This document shows, one piece after another, positions 24,998-36,544 of a stretch of 64,000 nucleotides of DNA (within the stretch, counting starts at the first letter, position 1; every line of letters begins with the position of its first letter). The stretch lies in NCBI RefSeq assembly GCF_000317555.1, contig NC_019745.1:4154001-4218000 (forward strand), written 5' to 3'. The translations under genes were made by a program, and so were the position numbers. The notes beneath the pieces are model-generated. The model made no database searches. It was given only the letters and a program-made list of their open reading frames with translations, and had not been told where the DNA came from. The stretch is from Gloeocapsa sp. PCC 7428 (GTDB lineage: Bacteria > Cyanobacteriota > Cyanobacteriia > Cyanobacteriales > Chroococcidiopsidaceae).

Positions 24998-25951
24998 ATG
25001 ACAAGGGGAAAACGAACTCAAGCCGCAGAACTCGAAGTGAGGTTACTGCGCGAAGGTATTATCGAATCTAGACATGTAGTCCAGGCTGTTGTATGTGACG
25101 ACCGAGGACGCATTTTGTCTGTTGCTGGAAACGCTGAGACTGCAACATTTATCCGTTCTGCACTCAAGCCATTTCAAGCATTAGGTGTCACCACTACAGG
25201 GACACTCGAACGCTACAACCTAACGGATCGCGATTTAGCAATCATCTGTAGTTCGCATAAAGGCACAATTGAGCAAGTGCGTCAAGTATTTAATATTCTA
25301 TGGCGTGCAGATATTGATCCTTCCGTTTTACAGTGTCCGATTCCTGAAGGCAAACGCAGTTCATTGCAGTACAACTGTTCGGGGAAACACGCCGGAATGC
25401 TTGCGGTTTGCCAACAGCGACGTTGGTCGTTGAATAATTATTTACAGCGCAACCACCCCGTACAGCAACTGATTTTTGGTAAAATTGCCGAATTGCTACG
25501 GATGCCAGCCGAGGAATTTATTTGCGCGCATGATGATTGTGGCGCGCCAACTTATTTAATGCAAATGGGACAAATTGCGTCGTTGTACGCGCAGCTAGCC
25601 TCTGGCAATAATTTGGATATGGAACGCATTGTACGCGCCATGACACACCACCCAACGATGGTTGCTGGAGATGGTGAATTTGATACCGAATTGATGCGCT
25701 TAACGCAAGGCGAATTAGTGAGCAAAGCTGGTGCAGAAGGCATTCAGTGTATTGGTCGAATTGGCGAAGGTATGGGGTTAGCCATTAAAGTCATGGATGG
25801 GGCAAAGCGGGCTAAATACGCAGTGGCAATCTATCTATTGCAGCAAATGGGTTGGATAAGTCCGAGTGTTGCCGAAACGCTTGCTGAATCATTTATGACA
25901 CTAGGAAAATATAAGCGCCTCGAAGTCATCGGCGAATTGTCCATGTTGTAG
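24998..25951 (+). CDS. Asparaginase (thermolabile, Rhizobium-type)
   Basis: A 317-residue asparaginase of the PF06089 family, which hydrolyses asparagine to aspartate and ammonia. It is unrelated to the E. coli fold. The family motifs are present: RSALKPFQAL near the N-terminus, SSHKGTIEQV, YNCSGKHAGMLAVC (SGKH nucleophile block), HDDCGAPTY and SKAGAEGIQ. Length is slightly shorter than the rhizobial enzyme. It ends 41 bp before the initiator tRNA. Confidence 0.9.
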   Translation: MTRGKRTQAAELEVRLLREGIIESRHVVQAVVCDDRGRILSVAGNAETATFIRSALKPFQALGVTTTGTLERYNLTDRDLAIICSSHKGTIEQVRQVFNILWRADIDPSVLQCPIPEGKRSSLQYNCSGKHAGMLAVCQQRRWSLNNYLQRNHPVQQLIFGKIAELLRMPAEEFICAHDDCGAPTYLMQMGQIASLYAQLASGNNLDMERIVRAMTHHPTMVAGDGEFDTELMRLTQGELVSKAGAEGIQCIGRIGEGMGLAIKVMDGAKRAKYAVAIYLLQQMGWISPSVAETLAESFMTLGKYKRLEVIGELSML

Positions 25952-25980
25952 TTGCTAAAATTCTGATAATAGGTTATATT
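25952..25980 (+). promoter_or_regulatory. Promoter of the initiator tRNA
   Basis: TTGCTA at 25952-25957 and TATATT at 25975-25980 with 17-bp spacing, 11 bases before the tRNA 5' end. Spacing and position fit a tRNA promoter. Confidence 0.6.
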
Positions 25981-25991
25981 AGATAAGTTGA

Positions 25992-26068
<77 letters not shown>

Positions 26069-26080
26069 AATCAAAAAGTA

Positions 26081-26117
26081 AACCTCGTAATCTTTAGTGG
26101 TTGCGAGGTTTTATTTT
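26081..26117 (+). terminator. Terminator after tRNA-fMet
   Basis: AACCTCG (26081-26087) pairs with CGAGGTT (26104-26110), followed by TTATTTT. It sits 12 bases after the tRNA and just before the end of the convergent SDR gene. Confidence 0.6.
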
Positions 26118-26124
26118 AGCTAAA

Positions 26125-26883
26125 TTAGTGCATATAAGATGCTCCATTAATGTCAATCGTTGTCCCAGTCATGTGAGGGGCTAACCCAGAAGCTAGAAAA
26201 GCAATAACATTAGCTACATCTTGCGGTGGAGCAATTTTACCTAAGGGAATATCGCGCGTAACAGCTGCTTCGCCGTACTCTTGAATAAACTCGTCTACCA
26301 TCTCAGTTTTGACAAAACCAGGCGCAACCGCAAAAGCAAGAATATTATCAGCGGCAAATCCCCGTGCGATACTGCGCGTTAAAGCAATAACGCCACCTTT
26401 TGAGGCAGCGTAGTGGATATAATCTGGAGCGTCACCGCGAAAGGCTGCACGACTCGCAAGATTAATAATAATTCCACCAGCGCGATCGCGAAAGTGTCCA
26501 ATCGCTGCGCGGCATAAATCAGCAACCGCTATTAAGTTAACTTGTAAAGTTGTTTGCCATGCGCTACTCCAAAGATGGAGATCGTCATCAATCCCAGCCG
26601 ATTGAATAATTCCCGCGTTGTTGACCAATACATCGATTTGCCCGCGCCAAGCGATCGCTTGATGCCATAAAGTTTGACTCGCATTCTGAACAGCAAGATC
26701 GGCTTGTACTAAGAAACAGCGATCGTCACTGATTTCTTTGGCAAGTGCTTGGGCAGAGGAGTGCGCTCGACTGTAATGTAAAATCACGTAAGCTCCAGCT
26801 TGGGCAAGTGTCAATACCGTTGTGGCACCAATTCCGCGCGATCCTCCTGTCACTAAAATCACTTTGTCCTGTAAATTGATCAT
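26125..26883 (-). CDS. SDR family oxidoreductase (FabG-like)
   Basis: A 252-residue classical short-chain dehydrogenase/reductase. NAD(P)-binding motif VTGGSRGIGA (residues 10-19), NNAG (about 89-92), the catalytic Ser region INLASRAAF and Tyr-x3-Lys in YIHYAASKGG are all present. A good AGGAGG site precedes ATG 26883. It resembles 3-oxoacyl-ACP reductases, but the substrate cannot be told. It is the last ordinary gene before the phage-like island. Confidence 0.88.
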   Translation of the reverse strand: MINLQDKVILVTGGSRGIGATTVLTLAQAGAYVILHYSRAHSSAQALAKEISDDRCFLVQADLAVQNASQTLWHQAIAWRGQIDVLVNNAGIIQSAGIDDDLHLWSSAWQTTLQVNLIAVADLCRAAIGHFRDRAGGIIINLASRAAFRGDAPDYIHYAASKGGVIALTRSIARGFAADNILAFAVAPGFVKTEMVDEFIQEYGEAAVTRDIPLGKIAPPQDVANVIAFLASGLAPHMTGTTIDINGASYMH

Positions 26884-26949
26884 GAATCCTCCTCGGAGTG
26901 CTAATTGCTAATCGCTTTCATAAAATTTTGTTCTATGCTGGAATCCCCA

Positions 26950-27420
26950 CTAAGTACTGTAGTAAACTGCAAGTGGAATTTGTTGAATACCCGCGTCGCG
27001 AAATTCCTGCATGAGTTGGCAAAATAAGTCCCAATGCGCTTGCTGTGGGATGACAATGCACCCCGCGCTCCCTGGCACATTCGCATCAAAATGAATGCCA
27101 AAATCCCCGCGCGTCACGCTACCGAGTTGCACCGAAAAAGGTGCGATCGCATAAAACGAGCCTTCGACGCCTTTGACGTGCGGCAACCACAGTCTTTGCG
27201 TGCTAACAGTGTATTTGTGCGCCCCAATCGCCCCACTCGGTGGCAGCGGTCCTCGTCTCTTGCGCGTCCAAGACCCCGCACATTGATGCCCTACGGTACC
27301 GCTAGTGGCAAGCATCTTAATTCCCGCGTCTTGGGGACGGCGCTTGATCAAGAGATAGCCATAAATGAGTGATAATCGCGGATTAAGTGGTAGCTGTAAG
27401 TAAAACTCGATGCTAGGCAT
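26950..27420 (-). CDS. YkuD-like Cys/His protein, putative lysis enzyme
   Basis: A 156-residue protein. The region GDFGIHFDANVPGSAGCIVI carries His110 and Cys121 in an order that resembles the catalytic H...S-x-G-C motif of L,D-transpeptidases (YkuD), although the spacing is short and the SHGC His is replaced by Ala. The upstream SFYAIAPFSVQLGSVTRGDFGIH reads like the strand before that motif. A wall-active role (phage lysis) is inferred from this motif plus two small membrane proteins just upstream. The start at 27420 overlaps the stop of the preceding gene, giving translational coupling; a start at 27465 is possible. Last gene of the island's minus-strand operon. Confidence 0.55.
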   Translation of the reverse strand: MPSIEFYLQLPLNPRLSLIYGYLLIKRRPQDAGIKMLATSGTVGHQCAGSWTRKRRGPLPPSGAIGAHKYTVSTQRLWLPHVKGVEGSFYAIAPFSVQLGSVTRGDFGIHFDANVPGSAGCIVIPQQAHWDLFCQLMQEFRDAGIQQIPLAVYYST

Positions 27421-27580
27421 CCGCACCTCCGCGCATCGAATAGCCGATATAGCCGCTGGTTGCAATTTTGGCTAGATCCAAAAACAGCGCTTGTAGTTCA
27501 ACGTTGCGCATCGCCAAAAAGAACGATCCACACACCAGGGCAACGCACAACGTAAAAATTCCCGATGTGGTCTTATTCAT
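27413..27580 (-). CDS. Small membrane protein, holin-like
   Basis: A 55-residue protein with one clear N-terminal membrane helix (GIFTLCVALVCGSFFLAM) and a second weaker hydrophobic stretch. Its start overlaps the preceding gene by 8 bp and its stop overlaps the next start, so it belongs to the operon. Size and place before a possible wall enzyme suggest a holin, but no holin family is recognised. Confidence 0.5.
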   Translation of the reverse strand: MNKTTSGIFTLCVALVCGSFFLAMRNVELQALFLDLAKIATSGYIGYSMRGGADA

Positions 27581-27833
27581 GCGTCCCTCCGCGCAGCGAC
27601 GCGTAAAACATCCCCTTAAGTTCGAGCAATTGACTTTGAACGCCGTCAAAGCGCGAGTCCATCTCTTTGGCAATAAATTTAAGATTCTCGCTTAGCTGCT
27701 CTTGGTTATTTCGCAGGTGGTTAAATTCGCGCTTCTGCGCGTAGTTCGTTTCAACGCTTGAGCGATACCACGCCAAAACTCCGCCCAAAAACGTCACCGC
27801 ACCGATTAGGGTGCCAAGCATTTCAAGTCCCAT
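27573..27833 (-). CDS. Small membrane protein with coiled coil
   Basis: An 86-residue protein: N-terminal membrane helix (MLGTLIGAVTFLGGVLAWY), then a charged heptad-like helix (FNHLRNNQEQLSENLKFIAKEMDSRFDGVQSQLLELKGMFYASL). This N-in, single-helix plus coiled-coil plan is frequent in phage holin or spanin accessory proteins. Gap to the upstream gene is 5 bp. Function is inferred from position only. Confidence 0.55.
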   Translation of the reverse strand: MGLEMLGTLIGAVTFLGGVLAWYRSSVETNYAQKREFNHLRNNQEQLSENLKFIAKEMDSRFDGVQSQLLELKGMFYASLRGGTHE

Positions 27834-27838
27834 AATTC

Positions 27839-28318
27839 TTAACTCGATAAAGCATCGACCTTGGTTTCGAGCCGCGCTAAATCAACCTTCACCGTGTCGA
27901 GTAATTCCTCAAGCTGTTCGGCATAAACGCCGGTGTATTCCCAAATCGTTAAACGCAAATCGCGCATCCAGTACGGCGGCTCAAAAACCAGTTCGTAATC
28001 ACTCGATAGCCACGGCAGGCGGATCACCTCGGTGCGGTTGAGCCGCAGTCCCTTGGAATAGGTAACGGCGGGCGTACTATTAAACGCGGTGTTGACGATA
28101 CTGACGCGCTGCGAGAGCGTTCCTGCAAACCGCCAGCGCGATTTCGCACTTGGTGATAGCGTCCGCACTCGAATAATCGGAGTATTGAGCAGGATGCCGA
28201 CTTCAAACGCGGCAATCGGGTCGTAGGCAGTTTGTGTAATTGGCACCGCGCTGCGCGATTCGTCAAGCACTTCACCCCAGTTATTGGGATTTGCGAGGTC
28301 AACCGTAAGCTGACTCAT
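27839..28318 (-). CDS. Island protein of unknown function
   Basis: A 159-residue protein I do not recognise. It is mostly beta-like in composition, with Trp/Tyr-rich strands (LPWLSSDYELVFEPPYWMRDLRLTIWEYTG), and ends in a short heptad helix (EQLEELLDTVKVDLARLETKVDAL). The ATG at 28318 lies 1 bp after the upstream stop. A C-terminal coiled coil on a beta-rich body is seen in phage fibres and baseplate parts, but this is only a suggestion. Confidence 0.6.
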   Translation of the reverse strand: MSQLTVDLANPNNWGEVLDESRSAVPITQTAYDPIAAFEVGILLNTPIIRVRTLSPSAKSRWRFAGTLSQRVSIVNTAFNSTPAVTYSKGLRLNRTEVIRLPWLSSDYELVFEPPYWMRDLRLTIWEYTGVYAEQLEELLDTVKVDLARLETKVDALSS

Positions 28319-28319
28319 G

Positions 28320-28547
28320 TCAATACACAAGAGCTAAATTGTCGATTGCGGCGGTCAAAAATTGGTCGATATCCACGCCGCACGTTTCCAGAATGTCTAC
28401 GTAGTCGGAAAAATTAATTCGCCCAGCGATGAATTGATTCAGTGCCAGCGCAGTTGTTTCAAACCGCATTGCGGCATCTAAGAATTCATCGCTGTTCTCA
28501 TTTGTCCCGACCACGAACTGGGGGCTAATAATTTGATCGAGGTGCAT
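28320..28547 (-). CDS. Small island protein of unknown function
   Basis: A 75-residue acidic protein, apparently helical (NENSDEFLDAAMRFETTALALNQFIAGRINFSDYVDILETCGVDIDQFLTAAID). It sits with gaps of 1 and 5 bp between two other operon genes, which is the main argument that it is real. The pattern with a central FSDYVDIL resembles short helical packing or chaperone proteins; no family is recognised. Confidence 0.55.
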   Translation of the reverse strand: MHLDQIISPQFVVGTNENSDEFLDAAMRFETTALALNQFIAGRINFSDYVDILETCGVDIDQFLTAAIDNLALVY

Positions 28548-28552
28548 AGCGC

Positions 28553-29125
28553 TTAGCGGAAGACTTCGGGAGTAAAGCTAACGCTACGGGTATTTCCTTC
28601 GAGGACTTTGGCGCGAATTTCATCCATAACTGTTGCAAACGAGCGGTCGTCGCCAGTCGCTTTAGCACCGAACGGTAGCGTATAGGTTCGATTACCCTTC
28701 TTGATGTACCTTCTGCCGGTGATTTTAGAGTTATCTGAGCCAGTTCCTGAACCTAAAAGAGTCACGTGCGCTTGTGCAGGTTTGAAGGCGCGACGGACGA
28801 CGGCTAAATTCAACTCTGTCGAAACGTTCAACTCAGTCGTTGAAAGACCGGTGACATTGATATTGCTGATCGCGCGCTGCGATACCGGCACAATCAGTTT
28901 TGGTCCACCTGGACGCGCAAACGGTAATATAGCTAATTCATCAATGCGCCCAGGCTTGGAAGCGGCAGCGCGCGTATAGGAGATAGAGCGTTCGCCTGCA
29001 ACCCATTCTTGGTAGCGCCGTAGTTGGCTACCTGCGGGAGCTTGTGGGTTGACTCCAGTACCGTCGTCGCTCGTAGATCTTAAATAATTAAGCGCTGCTT
29101 CTAAATTTTTAAATCGTTTAGCCAT
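28553..29125 (-). CDS. Island protein of unknown function, basic and beta-rich
   Basis: A 190-residue protein, basic, with many short Thr/Val/Ser-rich strands (ISNINVTGLSTTELNVSTELNLAVVRRAF) and a helical C-terminus. I do not recognise it. Its size, charge and operon position would allow a structural (coat-like) role, but there is no direct evidence. It is separated from the upstream gene by 96 bp holding a short palindrome. Confidence 0.6.
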   Translation of the reverse strand: MAKRFKNLEAALNYLRSTSDDGTGVNPQAPAGSQLRRYQEWVAGERSISYTRAAASKPGRIDELAILPFARPGGPKLIVPVSQRAISNINVTGLSTTELNVSTELNLAVVRRAFKPAQAHVTLLGSGTGSDNSKITGRRYIKKGNRTYTLPFGAKATGDDRSFATVMDEIRAKVLEGNTRSVSFTPEVFR

Positions 29126-29188
29126 AATCTATAAATCTTTCTATGCGACCGCGATTCTAGCCACGACATAAGGCGGCTAAAACCTCAC

Positions 29189-29206
29189 GGAACCCTTAAG
29201 GGTTCC
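29189..29206 (-). promoter_or_regulatory. Palindrome between two island genes
   Basis: GGAACCCTTAAGGGTTCC is a perfect 18-base palindrome in the only sizeable gap of the minus-strand operon. It would give a 7-bp stem with a 4-base loop in mRNA. It could separate expression of the first two genes from the rest, or be a binding site. Confidence 0.45.
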
Positions 29207-29221
29207 ACACCAAATACGTAG

Positions 29222-30022
29222 CTACGGCACGAAGTGAACCGGACGGTAGCGCGAGCCGGTGCGATCTACTAAGCAAATTGGGTCAGAGATACCGCGAACG
29301 ATCAAATCTGCATAAGCAAACCGCACATAGCCGGTAGGTCGCCAGCGGCGCTTTTTATAGCTTTTCCCTAAAATTGCCTGATTGCTTGTGATGTTGTCTG
29401 ACGCTTTTTTTGGCTCAGTGATGCGGAAATTATCTTCCTCAAAAACATCACCTTGAATATCGAGTACCTTCTTAATAACTTGTTCGCCTTCGGTTGCATT
29501 TAAAGCATAGATTTGTAAGTCATATCCTTTAGCTGCATCTTTATACCAGCAAATGTATTTGCCTTTACTCCAGCGATAGCCATTGTTAAGCGCAAATTCC
29601 AAGCGAATTTTATTAGCTAAAGCTTTATATTTTGCTTCAGTTATTGATTCCGCAGTTTCATCAATGCGAAAAGTAATTTGCGCGTCGAGCGGTGCGTAAT
29701 TATCAGGAACTGAATCAAGATCTTGCTTGAAATAAAGTTGAATTTGACATTTGTATTTGATTTGCGCATCGTCAAAATTTTCTTTTAAAACGCCAACAAC
29801 TGTAGGCTTGAACGGTAATTTTAGAACGCGGTCGTAGAAGAACCGCATTTTGCTATCTGCGGTCAATCGACTATCTTTAGCCGTGATTAAACACAAATCG
29901 CGGACTGCAAGTCGATTGGGGAAGTTGTCAATATCGCGAAAGTGCCGGTAAACTTCGGCATTGTATCCAATTGTTGGCGCGCGTAAGAATTTGCGTTGCC
30001 GCGCCCAAGAGAGATCGGGCAT
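29222..30022 (-). CDS. Island protein of unknown function
   Basis: A 266-residue protein, rich in Lys, Tyr, Trp and Phe, with alternating short strands (YKCQIQLYFKQDL, DAQITFRIDE, GKYICWYKDAAKGYDLQIYAL) and a basic C-terminus (KKRRWRPTGYVRFAYADLIVRG). No family is recognised. Its ATG overlaps the stop of the 787-residue gene by one base (TAATG), so the two are translationally coupled and likely work together. Confidence 0.65.
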   Translation of the reverse strand: MPDLSWARQRKFLRAPTIGYNAEVYRHFRDIDNFPNRLAVRDLCLITAKDSRLTADSKMRFFYDRVLKLPFKPTVVGVLKENFDDAQIKYKCQIQLYFKQDLDSVPDNYAPLDAQITFRIDETAESITEAKYKALANKIRLEFALNNGYRWSKGKYICWYKDAAKGYDLQIYALNATEGEQVIKKVLDIQGDVFEEDNFRITEPKKASDNITSNQAILGKSYKKRRWRPTGYVRFAYADLIVRGISDPICLVDRTGSRYRPVHFVP

Positions 30023-32385
30023 TAAAATATATCCTCCAAGCTAAAGTTGGGCAGGTCTAAGCCTTCTTCTTCTGCATCGCGGTCAGCTTTAGCCGCAGCG
30101 TTCGCCGCTGTTACCGCTGTTTGAATCGTCGCGGCGTTTTCTTTGATTTCGTTCGCAGTTTCGACGATATTGCGCGCCGAGGATGTAATGTTTTCTAAGT
30201 CTTCAAACACGTTCTCAACAGTTTCTAACCCTTCAGCAATGCGCTGTAGCCTGCCAAAATACTTGCCTTTTGGTCTTTGATTGGGATCTTTGTAATTCCA
30301 GTTGTCTTCGCCAATAAGTCCTTCGTCTTGCAGTCCGTTACCGAGTTCGGCGACCCAGTTGCGCGTTGTTTCGTTGATGTTTTGCGTCTCTTCAAAGATG
30401 TCGCGGACGTTGCCAAATACTTGCGCGCCAGTGTTATAGATTGTGCTGTAGGCTTTCCACTGCGCCTTGATTGCCGTCCACTCGGTTGCGCCGAATAAAT
30501 TGCTGAAATAACTGTCGAGGTATTTTGTAAAAACATCCTGCGTGTTGATCGTGTCTGCATTGGGGTCTTTGATTAATGCAGGGATGGCAAACAAGTTATC
30601 CATGCATTCAAAGAACGTGTCTTTAATGCTTGTTGAAAGCATCATGCAGTTGTGAATCACGCCTGCCATCGTCACAAGGTTGACGACGCGATCTACACCA
30701 GCACTGCTGATAAACCCGTTGATGGCTTGTGAAATCGAACCGAACGCAGCAACATCCCCAACTTTGGTGTTGAGCAATTTCACGCCGTCGTCGATGTTTT
30801 TTAGTAGTACGCCTTGCGCAGCTTGCGTTGCGGCATCGAGTTTCTGCACAATGTCGTCGAGCTTGTTGTTCATGCTCGGCAATGGGTTACCGGAGCATTT
30901 GTTATTACCCGATAGCGCTTGACACGTCGCGTCACCAACAATCGCCCCTAACTTTTCTTGCGTCGCGGGTTGCGATAGCGCGGTGCCAATCGCAGCGGGA
31001 ATTAAAAGCCCAGTTTGGTCGGGAATATTATTAATTGCTTCGGTAATGCCTGGCAGTGCAACTGTTGTTTGATTAACTTGTTGCCCAATTTGTTGAAGCG
31101 GTGCAGCAAGCTCAAGTTGAATATTGTTTTGAACGTTTTGTAATTGTTGTTGAATGTCAGGAATTGATTGTTGAATTGTTGTTGCTTGTTGCCCGATTTG
31201 TTGAATTGGGGCGGCAAGTTGTTGTTGAATATTATCTTGAATGTTTTGTAATTGTTGTTGAACGTTGTTATTGGCTTGTTGAATTTGTTGAATTGGGTTT
31301 GATTCATTGAGTGCGGTACCAACTGCGCTGGGGATTACTTGTTGAATTTGATTAGGAATATTCGTAACAACTTCACCAAGTCCAGGGAAACTCAGTTGAA
31401 TTTCATCAAGTTTCGGGAGAACTTGATTATTAATTTGTTGTTGAACTTGCGGCAGTGTCTGCGCGATTGGTTGCGTTGTGGCGTTGACTGTTTGTTCGAG
31501 TTGTTGAACGTTTTGTTGAATCTGTTGCGTTGTTGTGTTGACGGTTTGTTCGACTTGTTGGACGTTTTGTTGAATTTGTTGGACGGGTTGCGATTGCCCC
31601 ACGGCGTGCGCAGCGGCGTGGTGCGGCTGGTCTGCAAAGATTGTGGGTACAGGTGTACCCACGGGGACTTCGCGCGGGGCGCGGTCAACTTCAATAGGCG
31701 TTGTCGGGTCGCCGGTTAGCAGCGTGTCGCCAGTGGTGTTTTGACCAAAGCTATCTTGTAGCGTACCCGTGGGCGGTCGGGAAGCAATGAAGTCTTTCCA
31801 GTTGGTATCGGTGAGCGTATCGACGATTTCTTGGCGCTGTTGCGGCGTCAAGTCTTCCCATTTGGGCGGCGGTGCAGGGCAGCCGTTAGTACTTGTTTCA
31901 CTCGTTAGTATGCAATACCGACTAATTGATGCTAATTGATAAAGGTTTGATACAACTCGAAGATTATTTGCGTCATAGATGGCGGATCTAGGGTTGCCAT
32001 TGTAGTCACCGATCCGAAACGGTGGTTTGGCTTGGACTCCTATTTGAGTGTTGAAAACAAATTTATCGGTTCCTAGCCCTTGCGTTTCATAGATTCCTTC
32101 GATGCGGTATCGTCCTGGCGTTGTTGGTTGAATTTGGCAGATGCCCGCACTGGGATTTGTGGCGCAGTAGACTTGCTTAACAAAGTCTACAAGTTGGTTG
32201 CGCGTTGGCTCGTCAAGGAGCAAGTACGCGGCTTGACCGACCATCACCGCACCAACGACAACTTTGGCTTGCGGCGGGAGTGACGTGGCGGGATTGATTA
32301 GTGAGGGTAAAAGACGTTGTTTAACGAAGTTAATAACGGCGGCACCGCCTGGACCATTGAGAACAACTGGTAAAGTTAACCCCAT
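30022..32385 (-). CDS. Large Gln-rich coiled-coil repeat protein of the island
   Basis: A 787-residue protein, first gene of the minus-strand operon, not recognised. Residues 1-250: hydrophobic start (VVVGAVMVGQAAYLLLDE) and a Cys-containing domain. Residues 265-440: Gln-rich coiled coil with internal repeats, a 22-residue unit twice (PVQQIQQNVQQVEQTVN; QQIQQNVQQLEQTVN) and a unit of about 100 residues twice, each with a NIP(N/D)Q ... IP(S/A)A(V/I)GTAL block (at about 342-359 and 453-470) and a QQLQN(I/V)Q(D/N)NIQ segment. Residues 500-690: globular, with hydrophobic helices and Cys pairs. Residues 710-770: charged helix. Length and architecture recall tape-measure or fibre proteins of phages, by analogy only. 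Confidence 0.7.
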   Translation of the reverse strand: MGLTLPVVLNGPGGAAVINFVKQRLLPSLINPATSLPPQAKVVVGAVMVGQAAYLLLDEPTRNQLVDFVKQVYCATNPSAGICQIQPTTPGRYRIEGIYETQGLGTDKFVFNTQIGVQAKPPFRIGDYNGNPRSAIYDANNLRVVSNLYQLASISRYCILTSETSTNGCPAPPPKWEDLTPQQRQEIVDTLTDTNWKDFIASRPPTGTLQDSFGQNTTGDTLLTGDPTTPIEVDRAPREVPVGTPVPTIFADQPHHAAAHAVGQSQPVQQIQQNVQQVEQTVNTTTQQIQQNVQQLEQTVNATTQPIAQTLPQVQQQINNQVLPKLDEIQLSFPGLGEVVTNIPNQIQQVIPSAVGTALNESNPIQQIQQANNNVQQQLQNIQDNIQQQLAAPIQQIGQQATTIQQSIPDIQQQLQNVQNNIQLELAAPLQQIGQQVNQTTVALPGITEAINNIPDQTGLLIPAAIGTALSQPATQEKLGAIVGDATCQALSGNNKCSGNPLPSMNNKLDDIVQKLDAATQAAQGVLLKNIDDGVKLLNTKVGDVAAFGSISQAINGFISSAGVDRVVNLVTMAGVIHNCMMLSTSIKDTFFECMDNLFAIPALIKDPNADTINTQDVFTKYLDSYFSNLFGATEWTAIKAQWKAYSTIYNTGAQVFGNVRDIFEETQNINETTRNWVAELGNGLQDEGLIGEDNWNYKDPNQRPKGKYFGRLQRIAEGLETVENVFEDLENITSSARNIVETANEIKENAATIQTAVTAANAAAKADRDAEEEGLDLPNFSLEDIF

Positions 32386-32387
32386 AG

Positions 32388-32574
32388 AATTACTGATTGT
32401 TTTACCTTCGTTCTAATCAAGAAATAAATATCAGTAATTATTCTGCTTTTATGTAAATCCGGTAGCTTACTGATGGAGTTCAAAGCATTGCTGTGCCATT
32501 AATTGATGAGTTTTTATTTAATAGCTAATACTTCAATCATTCCACTTTTACCTATTAGTTAGATAAAAGCAGAA
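32388..32574. promoter_or_regulatory. Nested inverted repeats in the divergent island promoter region
   Basis: Two perfect inverted repeats lie between the divergent 787-residue gene and the recombinase: AATTACTGAT (32388-32397) with ATCAGTAATT (32430-32439), and TTCTGCTTTTAT (32441-32452) with ATAAAAGCAGAA (32563-32574). The first would form a hairpin right before the start codon of the minus-strand gene. The second pair, 110 bp apart and next to the recombinase gene, could be recombinase or regulator binding arms. Confidence 0.5.
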
Positions 32575-32607
32575 GTCGATCGTCAGGGCAAATCTGGAAG
32601 GTGCAAT

Positions 32608-33186
32608 ATGAAGAATAATCGTCACGGGCAAGCGGCAATTTTTAGCGATGCGGATTATGTGAAAGTGCGGCGATCAATTGCGAATAAAAAGCATCGATTG
32701 CTATTTGATATCGCGCGCTACACCGGCGAACGCTGGGGAGCGATTGTGCAGCTGCAAGTGAGTGATGTATTTGATGATAATGGAGTGCGATCGCATATCA
32801 CTTTCCGCGCAATCACGCGCAAAGCATCAACGCGCGGCATCCGCACGACGCGCCAGGTTCCCGTGCATCCCGAACTACGCGAGATTTTAGAAAAATATGG
32901 CTGCCCTAAAACTCGCTGGCTATTTCCGAGTCCGGTGGACGAGGAGACACATATCACTTTAAGAGCAGCTGATTTGATGCTGCGCGGTGCGGTCGAACGC
33001 GCTTACCTGGCACACAAAGGCTACAGCACACATTCAACGCGCCGCACGTTCATTACGACGCTCTACCGCAAAGGCGTTGATATCCACACGATTCAACTAA
33101 TCACGGGGCATCAAGATCTAAAATCGCTGATTCGCTATATCGAGGTCGATCCGGAGCGCACGCGAAGTGCGATCGCGCTTCTTTAG
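32608..33186 (+). CDS. Short tyrosine recombinase/integrase (catalytic domain only)
   Basis: A 192-residue tyrosine recombinase that lacks the usual N-terminal DNA-binding domain. The catalytic set is complete: Arg42 in YTGERWGA, His142-x2-Arg145 in THSTRRTF, His168 in TGHQDL and the nucleophile Tyr177 in IRYIEVD. A Lys in the beta-hairpin (RK at about 71-72) could be the fifth residue. It would catalyse site-specific integration or excision of the island, or resolve its dimers. Its 3' end overlaps an opposite-strand zinc-ribbon gene by 86 bp. Confidence 0.85.
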   Translation: MKNNRHGQAAIFSDADYVKVRRSIANKKHRLLFDIARYTGERWGAIVQLQVSDVFDDNGVRSHITFRAITRKASTRGIRTTRQVPVHPELREILEKYGCPKTRWLFPSPVDEETHITLRAADLMLRGAVERAYLAHKGYSTHSTRRTFITTLYRKGVDIHTIQLITGHQDLKSLIRYIEVDPERTRSAIALL

Positions 33187-33319
33187 AATGGCGCAGAAAA
33201 ATGATGCCGCAGTCCCAGCAGTACGATTCAAGTGCCGATTCGTGCGTCCAGGTATTATGCGACGCGCAGTAGGGGCACGGCTGACCGGAAAATAGCAGTT
33301 CAGGGTCTGATGAGTCCAT
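33101..33319 (-). CDS. Small zinc-ribbon protein
   Basis: A 72-residue protein with two CxxC knuckles, CPYCASHNTWTHES and CWDCGIIF, forming a zinc ribbon (residues about 15-40). The start overlaps the end of the upstream zinc-ribbon gene by 20 bp in another frame, suggesting coupling. The C-terminal part overlaps the recombinase gene on the other strand, but the ribbon itself lies outside that overlap, which argues that it is a true gene. Role (DNA or RNA binding, regulation) unknown. Confidence 0.6.
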   Translation of the reverse strand: MDSSDPELLFSGQPCPYCASHNTWTHESALESYCWDCGIIFLRHSKEARSHFACAPDRPRYSESAILDLDAP

Positions 33320-33740
33320 TTTTAATCAGCGCTTTGATGGCAACGGGGGTATCGCCTCTTTTTATAGCTTCTGTTACTTGCTCTTGTAGTGCGATCGCGC
33401 GCTCGTTCGCAGTGTTGCCGCCAGGAATGTGAACGTGATGCAATTTCTGTTTTTCCATCCACACGTATCGGTAATAAACGTGTTTCTTTTTGTTCGAGGG
33501 CGAGTAAGTTTCGACCCAGTGAATGTGTTCTGGAGTAGATTTTGAGTTTACTCCAGAACTGTCTTGAGTTACTCCAGAACTTATATCGGTTGGTTCTGGA
33601 GTAGAAAGTAAATTCTGATATTCAGGAGTCCAGGGTAGAAATTCTCTTTTACAATCAGGGCAGTAGGCGCAGTCTAACCCAATAATTAAGCGCTCATGCT
33701 GACACACACGAGCGCTAACACATACAGTTGTGGCAGTCAT
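33300..33740 (-). CDS. Zinc-ribbon-like island protein
   Basis: A 146-residue protein. The N-terminal part, CQHERLIIGLDCAYCPDCKREF, contains a Cys/His cluster of zinc-ribbon type. A linker (residues about 42-75) has two STPE and two SSGV repeats encoded by alternating 10-bp DNA repeats. The C-terminal part (HVYYRYVWMEKQKLHHVHIPGGN) is basic and aromatic, followed by a helix (ALQEQVTEAIKRGDTPVAIKALIKNG). A DNA-associated role is plausible. The start at 33740 was chosen because the longer frame from 33788 runs through a perfect hairpin. Confidence 0.65.
   Translation of the reverse strand: MTATTVCVSARVCQHERLIIGLDCAYCPDCKREFLPWTPEYQNLLSTPEPTDISSGVTQDSSGVNSKSTPEHIHWVETYSPSNKKKHVYYRYVWMEKQKLHHVHIPGGNTANERAIALQEQVTEAIKRGDTPVAIKALIKNGLIRP
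33528..33603. repeat. Four alternating copies of a 10-bp element
   Basis: TTCTGGAGTA at 33528-33537 and 33594-33603 and its complement TACTCCAGAA at 33549-33558 and 33570-33579 occur within 76 bp, inside the zinc-ribbon gene. The arrangement is forward, reverse, reverse, forward. Confidence 0.8.
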
Positions 33741-33765
33741 ATGATGTAAATGGTTTTTTGGTTTT

Positions 33766-33800
33766 AACTGCCAATGGATTTTTAGCATCCATTGGCAGTT
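33766..33800 (+). terminator. Perfect 14-bp stem hairpin
   Basis: AACTGCCAATGGAT (33766-33779) pairs with ATCCATTGGCAGTT (33787-33800) around a 7-base loop, and TTCTTC follows on the plus strand. It can work as a terminator for plus-strand transcripts coming from the recombinase side or as part of a small RNA. Confidence 0.55.
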
Positions 33801-33826
33801 TTCTTCAGTGATTTAGCGTCAACCGA

Positions 33827-33898
33827 AGCAAAATGTTTTTTTTGCTCATCCCTCCTTAATTCACAACGTCCACTGCGCCATGAAGCGCAGTTTTTATT
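33827..33898 (+). terminator. Second and third hairpin with T-run
   Basis: AGCAAAA (33827-33833) pairs with TTTTGCT (33840-33846). Further on, CTGCGC (33873-33878) pairs with GCGCAG (33885-33890) and is followed by TTTTTATTT, a standard intrinsic terminator on the plus strand. No plus-strand protein gene lies immediately upstream, so it may end a small RNA or the recombinase transcript, and also insulates the convergent repressor. Confidence 0.6.
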
Positions 33899-33914
33899 TG
33901 CAGGATGCACATTT

Positions 33915-34145
33915 TTAGTTGTGGCTGATCGGTGGTCCAAAATCATCAGGCAATTGGTCTGCTGTAATCTCTAGCACCTTAAGCAGGGTCTTAAACTGAC
34001 GGACAGTTAGCTTTGGTATTGCCCTTCCCCTTTCCCAATTCGCCACAGTGTTTTCTGTAACACCTAAAGCATCCGCAAGTTCCTTTTGGGTTATATGCCT
34101 GAGTGTCCTTAGTCTCATAAGAGGTGATAAAGGCTTTTTTGTCAT
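33915..34145 (-). CDS. XRE/Cro-cI-type repressor
   Basis: A 76-residue helix-turn-helix protein. The HTH spans about residues 18-40 (TQKELADALGVTENTVANWERGRAIPKL), the classical XRE signature. It is divergent to the small gene at 34392, and the region between holds three matching 18-bp operators, so it is very probably the regulator of the island, as phage repressors are. It has no peptidase domain for self-cleavage, so induction would need another route. Confidence 0.88.
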   Translation of the reverse strand: MTKKPLSPLMRLRTLRHITQKELADALGVTENTVANWERGRAIPKLTVRQFKTLLKVLEITADQLPDDFGPPISHN

Positions 34146-34149
34146 TTTA

Positions 34150-34167
34150 CCCTAAATTAATTTTGCC
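34150..34167. promoter_or_regulatory. Operator O1 for the XRE repressor
   Basis: CCCTAAATTAATTTTGCC, one of three sites of form CCCYAAA-N4-TTT-N-GSS. It starts 5 bp before the repressor start codon. A weaker related sequence, GCCTAATTTGATTGACGC, overlaps it at 34165-34182. Confidence 0.65.
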
Positions 34168-34185
34168 TAATTTGATTGACGCTTT

Positions 34186-34203
34186 CCCCAAATTGGTTTA
34201 GGC
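34186..34203. promoter_or_regulatory. Operator O2 for the XRE repressor
   Basis: CCCCAAATTGGTTTAGGC, centre 36 bp from O1. It lies between a possible plus-strand -35 (TTGACG, 34176-34181) and a weak -10 (TAGGCT, 34199-34204), where bound repressor would block transcription of the plus-strand genes. Confidence 0.65.
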
Positions 34204-34215
34204 TAAAAGTTGTTA

Positions 34216-34233
34216 CCCTAAATGAGTTTGGGG
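34216..34233. promoter_or_regulatory. Operator O3 for the XRE repressor
   Basis: CCCTAAATGAGTTTGGGG, centre 30 bp from O2. Together the three sites cover the divergent control region. A separate perfect palindrome, CATTCCAAGGAATG, follows at 34257-34270. Confidence 0.65.
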
Positions 34234-34391
34234 AAAAGAAACGAAAAAAACGCAGGCATTCCAAGGAATGGATGCCCACGAAATGACTGCGTTTGCATTC
34301 AGTTTCTCACTTGTGCCGCAAAACCCGTAAGCCGTCGCGTCGCTGGGTAGGCTCAAGGAGACACTTGCCCACAACCAACAACCAAAAAGCC

Positions 34392-34808
34392 ATGAGTCAA
34401 GACGAATTGCGCGCCTTGCGCGAACGCGTTGCTGAATTAGAGCAACAACTTAAAGCTGCGGAAAATACGATTAAGCGCGCTAAAAATCCCGACCCCGTTG
34501 AGCGTCCAACGCTAAAGCGCGTTCTCAAACTTGTTCGCGATGCGTGTATGACGCTCGTTCGCACCGCCTCTGGCTGGGTATTGAGTCTCGGTAACAAACA
34601 GCGCAAGTTTAGGCGGCTATTCGATATTTGGGAATTACTGCTAGTTGACGACTGGTTGCTGAGCGAGATCTTTCCAGAGTCAGAACAACCGCGCCCCCGA
34701 AGTCGCAAAGCCGCGCAGCCAAGATTGCCGCATCGCAACGAAGCGATCGCGCCGTCGTACCAAGTTGCCTGGTGGCAAGGGCGCGTTTACCAAAAGGCGT
34801 ACGGATAA
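34392..34808 (+). CDS. Island protein with N-terminal coiled coil
   Basis: A 138-residue protein of unknown function. The first 30 residues form a heptad helix (ELRALRERVAELEQQLKAAENTIKRAK), the middle is basic and helical (LKRVLKLVRDACMTLVRTASGWVLSLGNKQRKFRRLFDIWELL), and the end is Arg/Pro-rich. It is the first gene to the right of the operators. Start chosen at ATG 34392 because the sequence before it (from a TTG at 34293) is not protein-like. It could be an early regulatory or DNA-binding protein. Confidence 0.6.
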   Translation: MSQDELRALRERVAELEQQLKAAENTIKRAKNPDPVERPTLKRVLKLVRDACMTLVRTASGWVLSLGNKQRKFRRLFDIWELLLVDDWLLSEIFPESEQPRPRSRKAAQPRLPHRNEAIAPSYQVAWWQGRVYQKAYG

Positions 34809-35056
34809 TGAAAATACTTGCATTACCAGGAGGTGAGTTCATCAATCTTGAACTCGTGCGCCGAATCGAAACCGAACTCGATCCACCCGTCGCGCGCATA
34901 ATTTGGGCGCGGGATGAAACGCGCGTTTATCACGCAGAACGTGCGAGTGCGATTATTGAAGCTCTAAACGAAGATCTGTCCTGCTGGGATCTTATTGATA
35001 AGCGTCCCAAACCGCCAGCAGCAAAGTCATCAGATCCTGGCGACATCCCCTTCTAG
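34808..35056 (+). CDS. Small island protein, unknown
   Basis: An 82-residue protein starting in a TAATG overlap with the upstream gene, so the two are coupled. It has an alpha/beta pattern (MKILALPGGEFINLELVRRIE, VARIIWARDETRVYHAERASAIIEALNED) and a Pro/Lys-rich C-terminus ending in DPGDIPF. The short acidic tail resembles C-terminal tips of single-strand DNA-binding proteins in general form only. No family is recognised. Confidence 0.6.
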   Translation: MKILALPGGEFINLELVRRIETELDPPVARIIWARDETRVYHAERASAIIEALNEDLSCWDLIDKRPKPPAAKSSDPGDIPF

Positions 35057-35305
35057 CCGCCTGACGAGCCAGCAACGGCGAAACGGGGTTTACCCGTCGC
35101 GGCTTGGGTCCAAACCTTGCAGCAGCCACGCAGCGTAACAGCACTTGATGCTGGAGCGGGGTTTTTATCCCTTAATCTCTTCTTGGAATTGCTGGATTAT
35201 TGCTGCGTAGCTTACCCCTAGCCTTTGAGAGTGGATTGAGCCAAAAGCTCTAGGGAGATTCAGAAGGCACGACAACGGGGTTTTACGTTACATCCCCATT
35301 AACTC
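35057..35305 (+). ncRNA. Structured non-coding region, candidate bridge-type RNA
   Basis: This 249-bp stretch has no reading frame. Hairpins seen: a composite stem AGCC/GGCT (35067-35070 with 35101-35104), GCG/CGC (35078-35080 with 35098-35100) and ACGGG/CCCGT (35083-35087 with 35093-35097, loop GTTTA); CAGCA/TGCTG (35139-35153) followed by a T-run at about 35162; and CCCTAG/CTAGGG (35216-35221 with 35250-35255). It lies directly before an IS110-like recombinase gene. IS110-group elements encode a bridge RNA in this position, which guides recombination. Whether this stretch is transcribed as such is inference. Confidence 0.4.
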
Positions 35306-36511
35306 ATGAAAATAGTTGGTTTAGACGTTGGTAGCGCCAGCGTCGTAGCTTGCTGCCTGGAAGCATTACCACTTCCTCTCAAGCCGTTTTTTGCTGCGCA
35401 TAAAAGCGCGATTGTTGAGTTTCCCGCGACGCGCTCCGGTATCGCCGCGTTACTCGCCGTTAAACCCGATATTGCCATCCTCGAACCAACCGGAATGCAC
35501 TACGCCGAATTTTGGCAGCGCGCATTAACCGTTGAAGGCGTCGAAGTCCGCTACGTCGGGCACGTCCAGGTTCGCGCCTACCGGAAGTTGCACCGCCTGC
35601 CGAATAAAAACGATCGTGCCGATGCCTTAGCACTCGCGGCTTACGGCTGGCAATACATTGATAATCCAGAATTCTTTTTGCGGTTTGTGCCGAAGAGCGC
35701 ATTACACCTGCGCCGTTGCGTCATGCAATTGGCGCACTTGAATCGCATCACCACCCCAATCATCAACTGCACGCGCCAGTATCTCGCGCACGAATTTCCC
35801 GAAGTCGCCAAGATGCGATCATTGCGGAAAGTACGTGACGACCTACCGCCGTTGTGGGGTTGGTTGAGCGGCGATCGCGCATCGCCCTACTACGATCGCC
35901 TGTGGAAAAAGTCGGTCGCGCATGAATATGGATTAGAAATCTCTGAGTTTACAATCCATCAATCAAAGCGCATTTGCGATTTAGAGCGTCATCAAGACAG
36001 GATTGAGCAAGAGATTTTGACGTTACTTCAGAAAAGCGATTTTGCAATTTACTGCCGAGTATTCGATTCTTTTGGTTTTGGAGTGCGATCGCGTGCGGTG
36101 TTGCTGTCGCACATTTACCCATTTGAAGATTTTTTGAACCAAGATAATCAACCCGTGATTGAGTGGGGAGAATCAAAGTCGGGTAGAGCCACAAAACGCG
36201 ATCGCTCGTTACGCGCGTTCAAATTACGCATTGGTATGGGGCTTGTTGAAGATTCATCAGGACAATCGACCAACTGGGTACCTGGCGGTAGCAGTTTGTG
36301 CAGACAAGCGCTGTGGCAGTGGTGTTTGTGTCAGGTTGAACCGCGCCGAGGACGACACACTGATACTGTGCGGCTTTTAGGCGAGTATCTCGATGAATTA
36401 AAGGCAAGTCAACTGCCAGGAAAGTTAGCCCAACTGCGGACTTGTGCCAAAGCCGCGACGCTACTTTACAGGAGGCTACTGCAAGCTTTTAGTCAGAAGG
36501 AGCTAGAGTAG
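35306..36511 (+). CDS. IS110-like DEDD transposase/recombinase
   Basis: A 401-residue protein with the IS110/Piv plan. The RuvC-like N-terminal domain shows the DEDD set: Asp7 in GLDVGSASVV, Glu60 in ILEPTG, Asp103 and Asp106 in NKNDRADALALA. The C-terminal Tnp-type domain is divergent but traceable (FGFGVRSRAVLLSHIYPFEDF; SLRAFKLRIGMG; VPGGSSLCRQALWQW), with Ser329/Ser330 candidates for the nucleophile. Known relatives are transposases and the Piv DNA invertase. The protein is longer in the middle (residues 120-250) than typical IS110 enzymes. No terminal repeats or target duplications are evident. It may be an island function (integration or inversion) rather than a separate insertion sequence. 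Confidence 0.75.
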   Translation: MKIVGLDVGSASVVACCLEALPLPLKPFFAAHKSAIVEFPATRSGIAALLAVKPDIAILEPTGMHYAEFWQRALTVEGVEVRYVGHVQVRAYRKLHRLPNKNDRADALALAAYGWQYIDNPEFFLRFVPKSALHLRRCVMQLAHLNRITTPIINCTRQYLAHEFPEVAKMRSLRKVRDDLPPLWGWLSGDRASPYYDRLWKKSVAHEYGLEISEFTIHQSKRICDLERHQDRIEQEILTLLQKSDFAIYCRVFDSFGFGVRSRAVLLSHIYPFEDFLNQDNQPVIEWGESKSGRATKRDRSLRAFKLRIGMGLVEDSSGQSTNWVPGGSSLCRQALWQWCLCQVEPRRGRHTDTVRLLGEYLDELKASQLPGKLAQLRTCAKAATLLYRRLLQAFSQKELE

Positions 36512-36544
36512 AAGAGAAAGCATCCGAGTTATTCGCATTTAATC

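Follow-up and report, generated by a model that had tools for sequence, protein, structure and literature searches.

Cyanobacterial phage-like elements of 9.6-19 kb that are probably inserted by bridge-RNA-guided recombination and carry a hammerhead-type motif before the guide RNA

Guidance by a bridge RNA, together with the movement of cargo, is known for the insertion sequences (IS) of the IS110 group (PMC11208160, PMC11187229). In the published architecture each internal loop of this RNA uses its 5' side to pair with the left bottom strand and its 3' side to pair with the right top strand, and the core is present in all four pairings (PMC11208160). IS110-type enzymes are also known as integrases of filamentous phages (PMC11209303), and hammerhead ribozymes have been described near bacterial integrases and prophages, where their function is unclear (PMC3088659). 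Here we describe a mobile element of about 9.57 kb in a 64,000-nt stretch (positions 4,154,001 to 4,218,000 of NC_019745.1, hereafter the window) of the cyanobacterium Gloeocapsa sp. PCC 7428. Our analysis leads us to propose, with a probability of roughly 0.85, that it belongs to a new family of 9.6-19 kb cyanobacterial phage-like integrative elements inserted by RNA-guided recombination.

A first-pass annotation of the window had described a compact phage-like island at 26950-36511, and all of the open reading frames (ORFs) it listed are present there (Table 1). The island is real and its limits, which nearly equal those first proposed, are exact. They were fixed by empty sites, for which the flanks were searched in the family and found in five genomes (G085, G119, G102, G017 and G067). 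The clearest is that of G085, from the same genus, where the match to window positions 24998-26943 continues directly at 36511 with a 3-bp overlap; G119, G102 and G017 have this same empty site and G067 an equivalent one. The sequence common to both ends of the element is GAA only, with GA as its core, and the target sequence is TTCTATGCTGGAAGAGAAAGC. The left end, (GA)ATCCCC, is identical in 14 elements, and a search of the whole source genome (5.88 Mb, five contigs) found the block once. In one relative (L035:12270-14045) the element's endolysin frame and a host amidase-like gene form a hybrid ORF of 591 codons over the left junction (at about 12932), a fusion that seems to result from insertion.

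Table 1. Features of the element, in window coordinates (aa, amino acids; a dot marks features without strand).
Feature	Position	Strand	Remarks
Left junction	26941..26942	.	target core GA, then element left end ATCCCC from 26943; empty-site comparison
Complete mobile element	26943..36512	.	about 9.57 kb with one core copy
Endolysin-like protein, 171 codons	26950..27465	-	HxD...GSxGC motif as in L,D-transpeptidase-like enzymes, found by eye
Small membrane protein	27413..27673	-	holin-like position; true start probably internal (~55 aa)
Holin-like protein, 86 aa	27573..27833	-	one membrane segment and coiled coil; weak PHROG 1009 / 2658 matches
Conserved operon protein '163' (160-163 aa)	27839..28330	-	37-member family alignment
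Conserved 75-aa protein	28320..28547	-	
Conserved 190-aa protein	28553..29125	-	candidate particle protein by position alone
Conserved 266-aa signature protein	29222..30022	-	
787-aa protein	30022..32385	-	N-part hydrophobic, middle coiled coil, C-part conserved
12-bp perfect inverted repeat	32441..32574	.	TTCTGCTTTTAT (32441-32452) / ATAAAAGCAGAA (32563-32574); gap between operon and recombinase gene
Tyrosine recombinase (Xer-like), catalytic domain only, 192 codons	32608..33186	+	PF00589 E 1.5e-18
Zn-ribbon protein, 72 aa	33101..33319	-	weak profile match, under cut-offs
Conserved element protein, 162 aa	33300..33788	-	in all 14 elements
XRE/Cro-type repressor, 76 aa	33915..34145	-	HTH_3 PF01381 E 7.7e-12; PHROG repressors
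Coiled-coil protein, 171 aa	34293..34808	+	kept in relatives
Conserved small protein, 94 aa	34772..35056	+	
Hammerhead-type (type I) ribozyme motif	35056..35103	+	cleavage predicted after 35098
Bridge RNA	35099..35275	+	predicted, in leader 5' of IS110-type gene
Left target guide	35148-35155	+	
Right target guide	35176-35182	+	
Left donor guide	35227-35235	+	
Right donor guide	35253-35261	+	
IS110-type (DEDD) bridge recombinase, 401 aa	35306..36511	+	NCBIfam NF051857
Right junction	36511..36512	.	core GA overlaps recombinase stop codon, target right half next

An element integrated by a tyrosine recombinase would be expected to show a longer attachment core, and a dinucleotide core is a mark of IS110. 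The last gene of the element matches the NCBIfam model NF051857 at 460.7 bits against a cut-off of 180, and its residues D7, E60, D103, D106, S318 and S329 are conserved in 22-23 of 23 sequences. Its stop codon overlaps the right junction, and upstream of the gene lies a 250-nt gap (35057-35305) in which we found two features that the first-pass annotation did not have, a bridge RNA and a hammerhead-type motif. The guides in this leader are laid out as in the published IS110 architecture. In the first loop the left target guide ATGCTGGA is identical to the left target through the core GA, and the right target guide, TCTCTTC, is the reverse complement of the right target starting at that core, so that the two match the insertion site known from the empty sites. 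In the second loop the donor guides match the ends of the element with 1-2 mismatches: the left donor guide GAGAGTGGA differs at one position from the right end TAGAGTAGA, and the right donor guide GGGAGATTC, whose reverse complement is GAATCTCCC, matches the left end GAATCCCC with mismatches. Read from the sequence, the predicted bridge RNA thus has four guides, two for the empty target and two for the ends of the element itself. Given these matches and the tiny GA core, it is the IS110-type recombinase with its bridge RNA, and not the tyrosine recombinase, that explains integration, and the IS110-like gene is part of the element rather than a separate insertion. Near an IS110-type gene of the same family we also observed a HEARO RNA (L160:1171-1397, minus strand; Rfam RF02033, 141.8 bits).

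These findings bear directly on the possibility that the locus is a conventional tailed prophage, strongly reduced, which owes its integration to the tyrosine recombinase and has an unrelated IS110 insertion sequence at its right edge. The tyrosine recombinase, the XRE repressor, the lysis-like end and the long coiled-coil protein, which resembles a tape measure (PHROG tape measure, E 0.0012), are all what such a prophage would carry. However, a core of just 2-3 bp, donor guides that match outer ends 9.6 kb apart and not those of a 1.5-kb IS, an IS110-type gene in the same place in 14 elements and the failure of profiles to find terminase, portal or capsid make this reading very improbable. 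On our reading the element is not a prophage that integrates by a tyrosine recombinase, and it is not one into which an IS has inserted. Among the interpretations offered earlier, that of a new mobile element stands, whereas that of a very reduced prophage is disfavoured, since relatives repeat this compact layout and retain genes for replication and lysis, still without recognisable head genes.

If recombination is RNA-guided, the guides of related elements should follow their own insertion sites. An initial comparison with free alignment gave no discrimination, and we used instead a test in which the core was fixed at the stop codon of the recombinase gene and the 8-nt right target was sought in antisense in the element's own leader, with cross-pairs as the control. 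An exact right-target guide was present in 6 of 17 relatives as against 1 of 272 cross-pairs; allowing a single mismatch raised these counts to 9 of 17 and 19 of 272. For the 9-nt left target, a match with no more than one mismatch lay in the leader of the same element at 9 of 17 sites (cross-pairs, 6 of 391), and the left donor guide matched the right end with 0-1 mismatches in 9 of 17 relatives. A further set comprised 71 loci from Anabaena, Nostoc, Calothrix, Tolypothrix, Microcoleus and others, in genomes that partly overlap the first set; here the right-target guide was exact in 7 of 32 (7 of 1,472 cross-pairs) and had at most one mismatch in 14 of 32 (149 of 1,472). Three pairs of elements that share a genome (L189/L190, L191/L192 and L062/L193) have nearly identical leaders but different targets, and their guides differ to match, in what appears to be natural reprogramming of the guides. 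At L186 the flanks, when joined where the cuts are predicted, again form an open frame, of 100 codons. The target of L190 resembles a PemK-type gene, and its joined flanks do not count among the evidence.

Several observations weigh against our proposal. Two near-identical copies in one genome (L047 and L034, in G284) have a matching donor guide and lack a matching right-target guide, which may reflect either another register of the target loop or another route of movement, and several further relatives lack a guide match. The search for left ends demanded a guide match, so its result taken by itself is partly selected; the cross-pair controls are those of the right-target tests in both sets and of the left-target test. 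By a strict pattern about half of the leaders are without a full hammerhead, and the Rfam scores described below stay under gathering. Finally, a role of the operon in making a particle is drawn from its position, compactness and lysis-like end only.

We delimited 14 elements from left end to right end, of 9.6-18.8 kb and with one common gene order. The first-pass annotation regarded the island as a distinct and undescribed phage-like element, a view that is borne out by this conservation well beyond the source genome. The shared order begins with a minus-strand operon comprising some or all of the endolysin, holin-like, 163, 75, 190, 266 and 787 genes, often with one or two extra proteins of about 100 aa that the window element does not have. 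It continues with a plus-strand tyrosine recombinase gene, the 162-aa protein and usually a protein of the 171-aa coiled-coil type and a repressor, and it ends with small plus-strand genes, the guide RNA and the IS110-type gene. The operon is partly lost or changed in L190 and L193. Among 25 loci of the second, partly overlapping set with at least 9 kb upstream, operon genes were found in 21 and the tyrosine recombinase in 22. The 266-aa family occurs in 65 of the 293 genomes from the order and, in a sample of the phylum, in 27 of 386; relatives of the IS110-type recombinase occur in 71 of the 293, about 18 of them within 15 kb of a 266-aa gene. A plus-strand gene for a 403-aa P-loop ATPase (GEMGTGKST) lies within the element of L202 (G077:C23); it was not seen in the other relatives, and it is possible that it serves in packaging or DNA translocation.

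The operon is also found apart from IS110. It lies on plasmid pHT582-2 together with ParA/ParB, on pHT582-1, and beside primase-helicase genes of the DUF3854/D5_N, VapE and DnaB types. The source genome itself has a second, diverged copy that the first-pass annotation did not cover (L043, 5248-14600 of G000:C1:3497500-3517400), where the order 656-306-235-78-178-169 aa is followed further on by an endolysin with a peptidoglycan-binding domain, and a tyrosine integrase and a serine recombinase adjoin the operon instead of IS110. Plasmid pHT582-2 (L022, CP019638.1) is circular and 15.6 kb long and carries, besides ParA/ParB and the 787 and 266 genes, a PIN-domain gene and a gene for a 1,690-aa protein with a match to the MACPF domain.

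The motif that precedes the bridge RNA runs CUGANGA, hairpin, GAAA, second hairpin, UH, with a third stem closing it, and recurs in many leaders. A strict hammerhead pattern was found in 17 of 35 leaders, whereas 1,750 shuffles gave none; in the second, partly overlapping cyanobacterial set it was found in 28 of 47 loci. The window motif has the full core and three stems, and its minimum-energy fold is the hammerhead three-way junction. In all 16 sequences compared the pairs adjacent to the core are kept, with as many as five types of pair and compensatory changes among them. A scan at the Rfam gathering level returned no hammerhead; under it hammerheads are the sole families matched in these stretches (RF00008 at 20.5-21.6 bits against a gathering score of 48.5, and RF03152 at 28.3 against 56.3 in L032), and since the gathering score is not reached we call this a hammerhead-type motif. 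An Rfam match to TtnuHACA1 (E 0.59) was rejected. The predicted cut lies just 5' of the bridge RNA, from which we infer processing of its 5' end, and the motif suggests how the guide RNA may gain that end. We found no link between hammerheads and IS110 in the literature searched.

The minus-strand operon is tight, with eight genes of 171, ~55/86, 86, ~160, 75, 190, 266 and 787 codons. Its proteins were described earlier as unfamiliar, and they gave no convincing match in Pfam, PHROG or NCBIfam. Structural models of the 190-aa and 266-aa proteins (AlphaFold2; predicted local distance difference test scores 90.9 and 90.3) had no Foldseek match at E<=0.001 in the PDB, nor did the 190-aa model in the viral library BFVD; scattered weak matches in Foldseek and VIA-align (in VIA at most Z 4.9 for the 266-aa protein, across some 50 residues, and Z 3.1 for the 190-aa protein) were not taken as a relationship. 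The middle of the 787-aa protein is collagen-like in some relatives, and its low-E matches are confined to the coiled coil; those to ZorA (PADLOC, E 7.8e-6) and to Pfam and PHROG tape-measure families were rejected as composition. Scans of viral contigs with the single 266-aa, 190-aa and IS110-type proteins and with an IS110 alignment found no relatives (an alignment of distant relatives, A1, varied too much to be used in pattern scans), and tblastn of the 266-, 787- and 401-aa proteins against 50,697 phage records found nothing. As first reported, no terminase, portal, capsid or replication gene is recognisable, which holds for Pfam, PHROGs and NCBIfam profiles; likewise no profile matched the Zot/pI ATPase or the Inoviridae coat and replication genes, and no ATPase family was recognised among the window proteins. 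At the end of the operon the match of the endolysin-like protein to Tlde1 is weak, its slot is filled by an M15 peptidase in L032 (PF08291, E 6.6e-16) and by a peptidoglycan-binding plus VanY-like protein in L043, and the small membrane protein has a 58-aa relative in L035. This swapping of lysis genes among relatives speaks for lysis as the mode of release. Most relatives keep the 266 and 190 genes about 100 bp apart (29126-29221 in the window) though neighbouring genes overlap or abut, and it is possible that this gap holds a strong expression signal for the 190-aa protein.

What the operon makes can be read in more than one way. It may be the provirus of an undescribed kind of virus, in which the 190-, 266-, 163-, 75- and 787-aa proteins and the lysis genes build a virion without known relatives and a bridge RNA freed by its own hammerhead guides integration; we hold this tentatively. 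A phage satellite moved by a bridge recombinase, with functions in entry, adsorption or interference and in lysis and with a capsid provided by a helper, is less likely than not. In its favour, no packaging or capsid genes are recognised in the window element, its size resembles that of known satellites, and some other carriers of the module have satellite-like primase-helicase genes. Against it, satellites rarely have so long a conserved operon with lysis-like genes of its own, no operon protein has a match among phage proteins, the module also resides on the ParAB plasmid pHT582-2, and neither a helper nor a pac/cos site was identified. A non-viral origin, as a domesticated, tailocin-like or delivery operon that is cargo of a large IS110 element, seems still more doubtful. 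A coiled-coil protein of 787 aa and a lysis-like end would also be in keeping with an injection apparatus that is released from the cell, and the module is seen with other integrases and on plasmids, but no sheath, tube, baseplate or toxin was recognised and the presence of the family (65 of 293 genomes) is patchy and mobile.

For the RNA-guided element that we favour, the following course would fit these observations. The rightward transcript that runs beyond the 94-codon gene would hold the hammerhead-type motif, cut itself after 35098 and thereby free the 5' end of the bridge RNA, which lies in the leader of that recombinase gene of IS110 type. One internal loop would pair with the target (ATGCTG-GA on the left, GA-AGAGA on the right) and the other with the joined ends of the element (...AGAGTA-GA of the right end, GA-ATCCCC of the left end), pairings for which the guide matches are seen, and the recombinase would exchange strands at the shared GA by a chemistry like that of IS621. 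Once integrated, the element would be silenced by the XRE repressor; induction would give an excised circle, the minus-strand operon would make a particle or particle-like complex, and the holin/endolysin pair would open the cell.

Profiles name four products only, namely the tyrosine recombinase, the XRE repressor, the Zn-ribbon protein (weakly) and the IS110-type recombinase. The repressor faces repeats that, on reading the sequence, are putatively operator-like. The tyrosine recombinase is present in all 14 end-to-end elements and accounts for neither end. Its role is probably accessory, in resolving multimers or inverting a promoter segment, although the evidence for this is weak. The perfect 12-bp inverted repeat beside its gene is 134 bp wide and flanks about 110 bp of the promoter gap, and 1 of 200 shuffles gave one as good; it is possibly a site of the tyrosine recombinase or an invertible promoter. 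A comparable repeat spans 99 bp in L062, lox-like palindromes lie beside the tyrosine recombinase gene in L074, L081, L028 and L036, and neither was found in others. Promoter and terminator scans did no better than shuffles.

Our results indicate that bridge-RNA recombination carries elements of 9.6-19 kb, far above the size of insertion sequences, and the family offers a model from nature for inserting large DNA under RNA guidance, in which reprogramming appears to be visible within single genomes. As the operon families occur in about a fifth of the sampled genomes of the order and are absent from the phage and viral-contig collections searched, a common class of mobile element may have been overlooked.

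Among known systems, phage satellites (phage-inducible chromosomal islands, P4, PICMI (PMC10803314) and tycheposons) are likewise compact and integrative, with a repressor and without recognisable head and tail genes, but the elements described here are probably integrated under RNA guidance and have lysis-like genes of their own and an operon without relatives in the searched phage records. The filamentous phages with an IS110/Piv-type transposase (Acinetobacter Af phages, PMC11209303; Neisseria phages with pivNM) share the type of integrase and a similar size (about 7-10 kb). Their Zot/pI ATPase, rolling-circle replication initiator and small coat protein are not recognised here, where there are instead a lysis-like end, a tyrosine recombinase and cyanobacterial hosts; what is new in this respect is a broad phage-like family that would use a bridge RNA with no recognisable filamentous-phage genes. 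Bacterial hammerheads (PMC3088659) and RAGATH-1 (Rfam RF03152) share the core CUGANGA...GAAA...UH, the three stems and the mobile-element context, whereas here the motif stands directly before a recombinase guide RNA, suggesting a role in processing. Closest are the IS110 insertion sequences with a bridge RNA or seekRNA (IS621 and others; PMC11208160, PMC11187229), which have in common with our elements the DEDD recombinase with D7/E60/D103/D106 and C-terminal serines, a guide RNA with two internal loops in the 5' leader, and a dinucleotide core in four guides without a long target duplication. They differ in that here phage-like genes separate the left end from the guide RNA, by about 8-18 kb in elements of 9.6-19 kb, the core is GA and a hammerhead-type motif precedes the guide RNA. 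Also new, besides the motif in this position and an operon whose proteins have no known relatives, are the comparison of target and donor guides with actual empty sites and what appears to be natural reprogramming of the guides.

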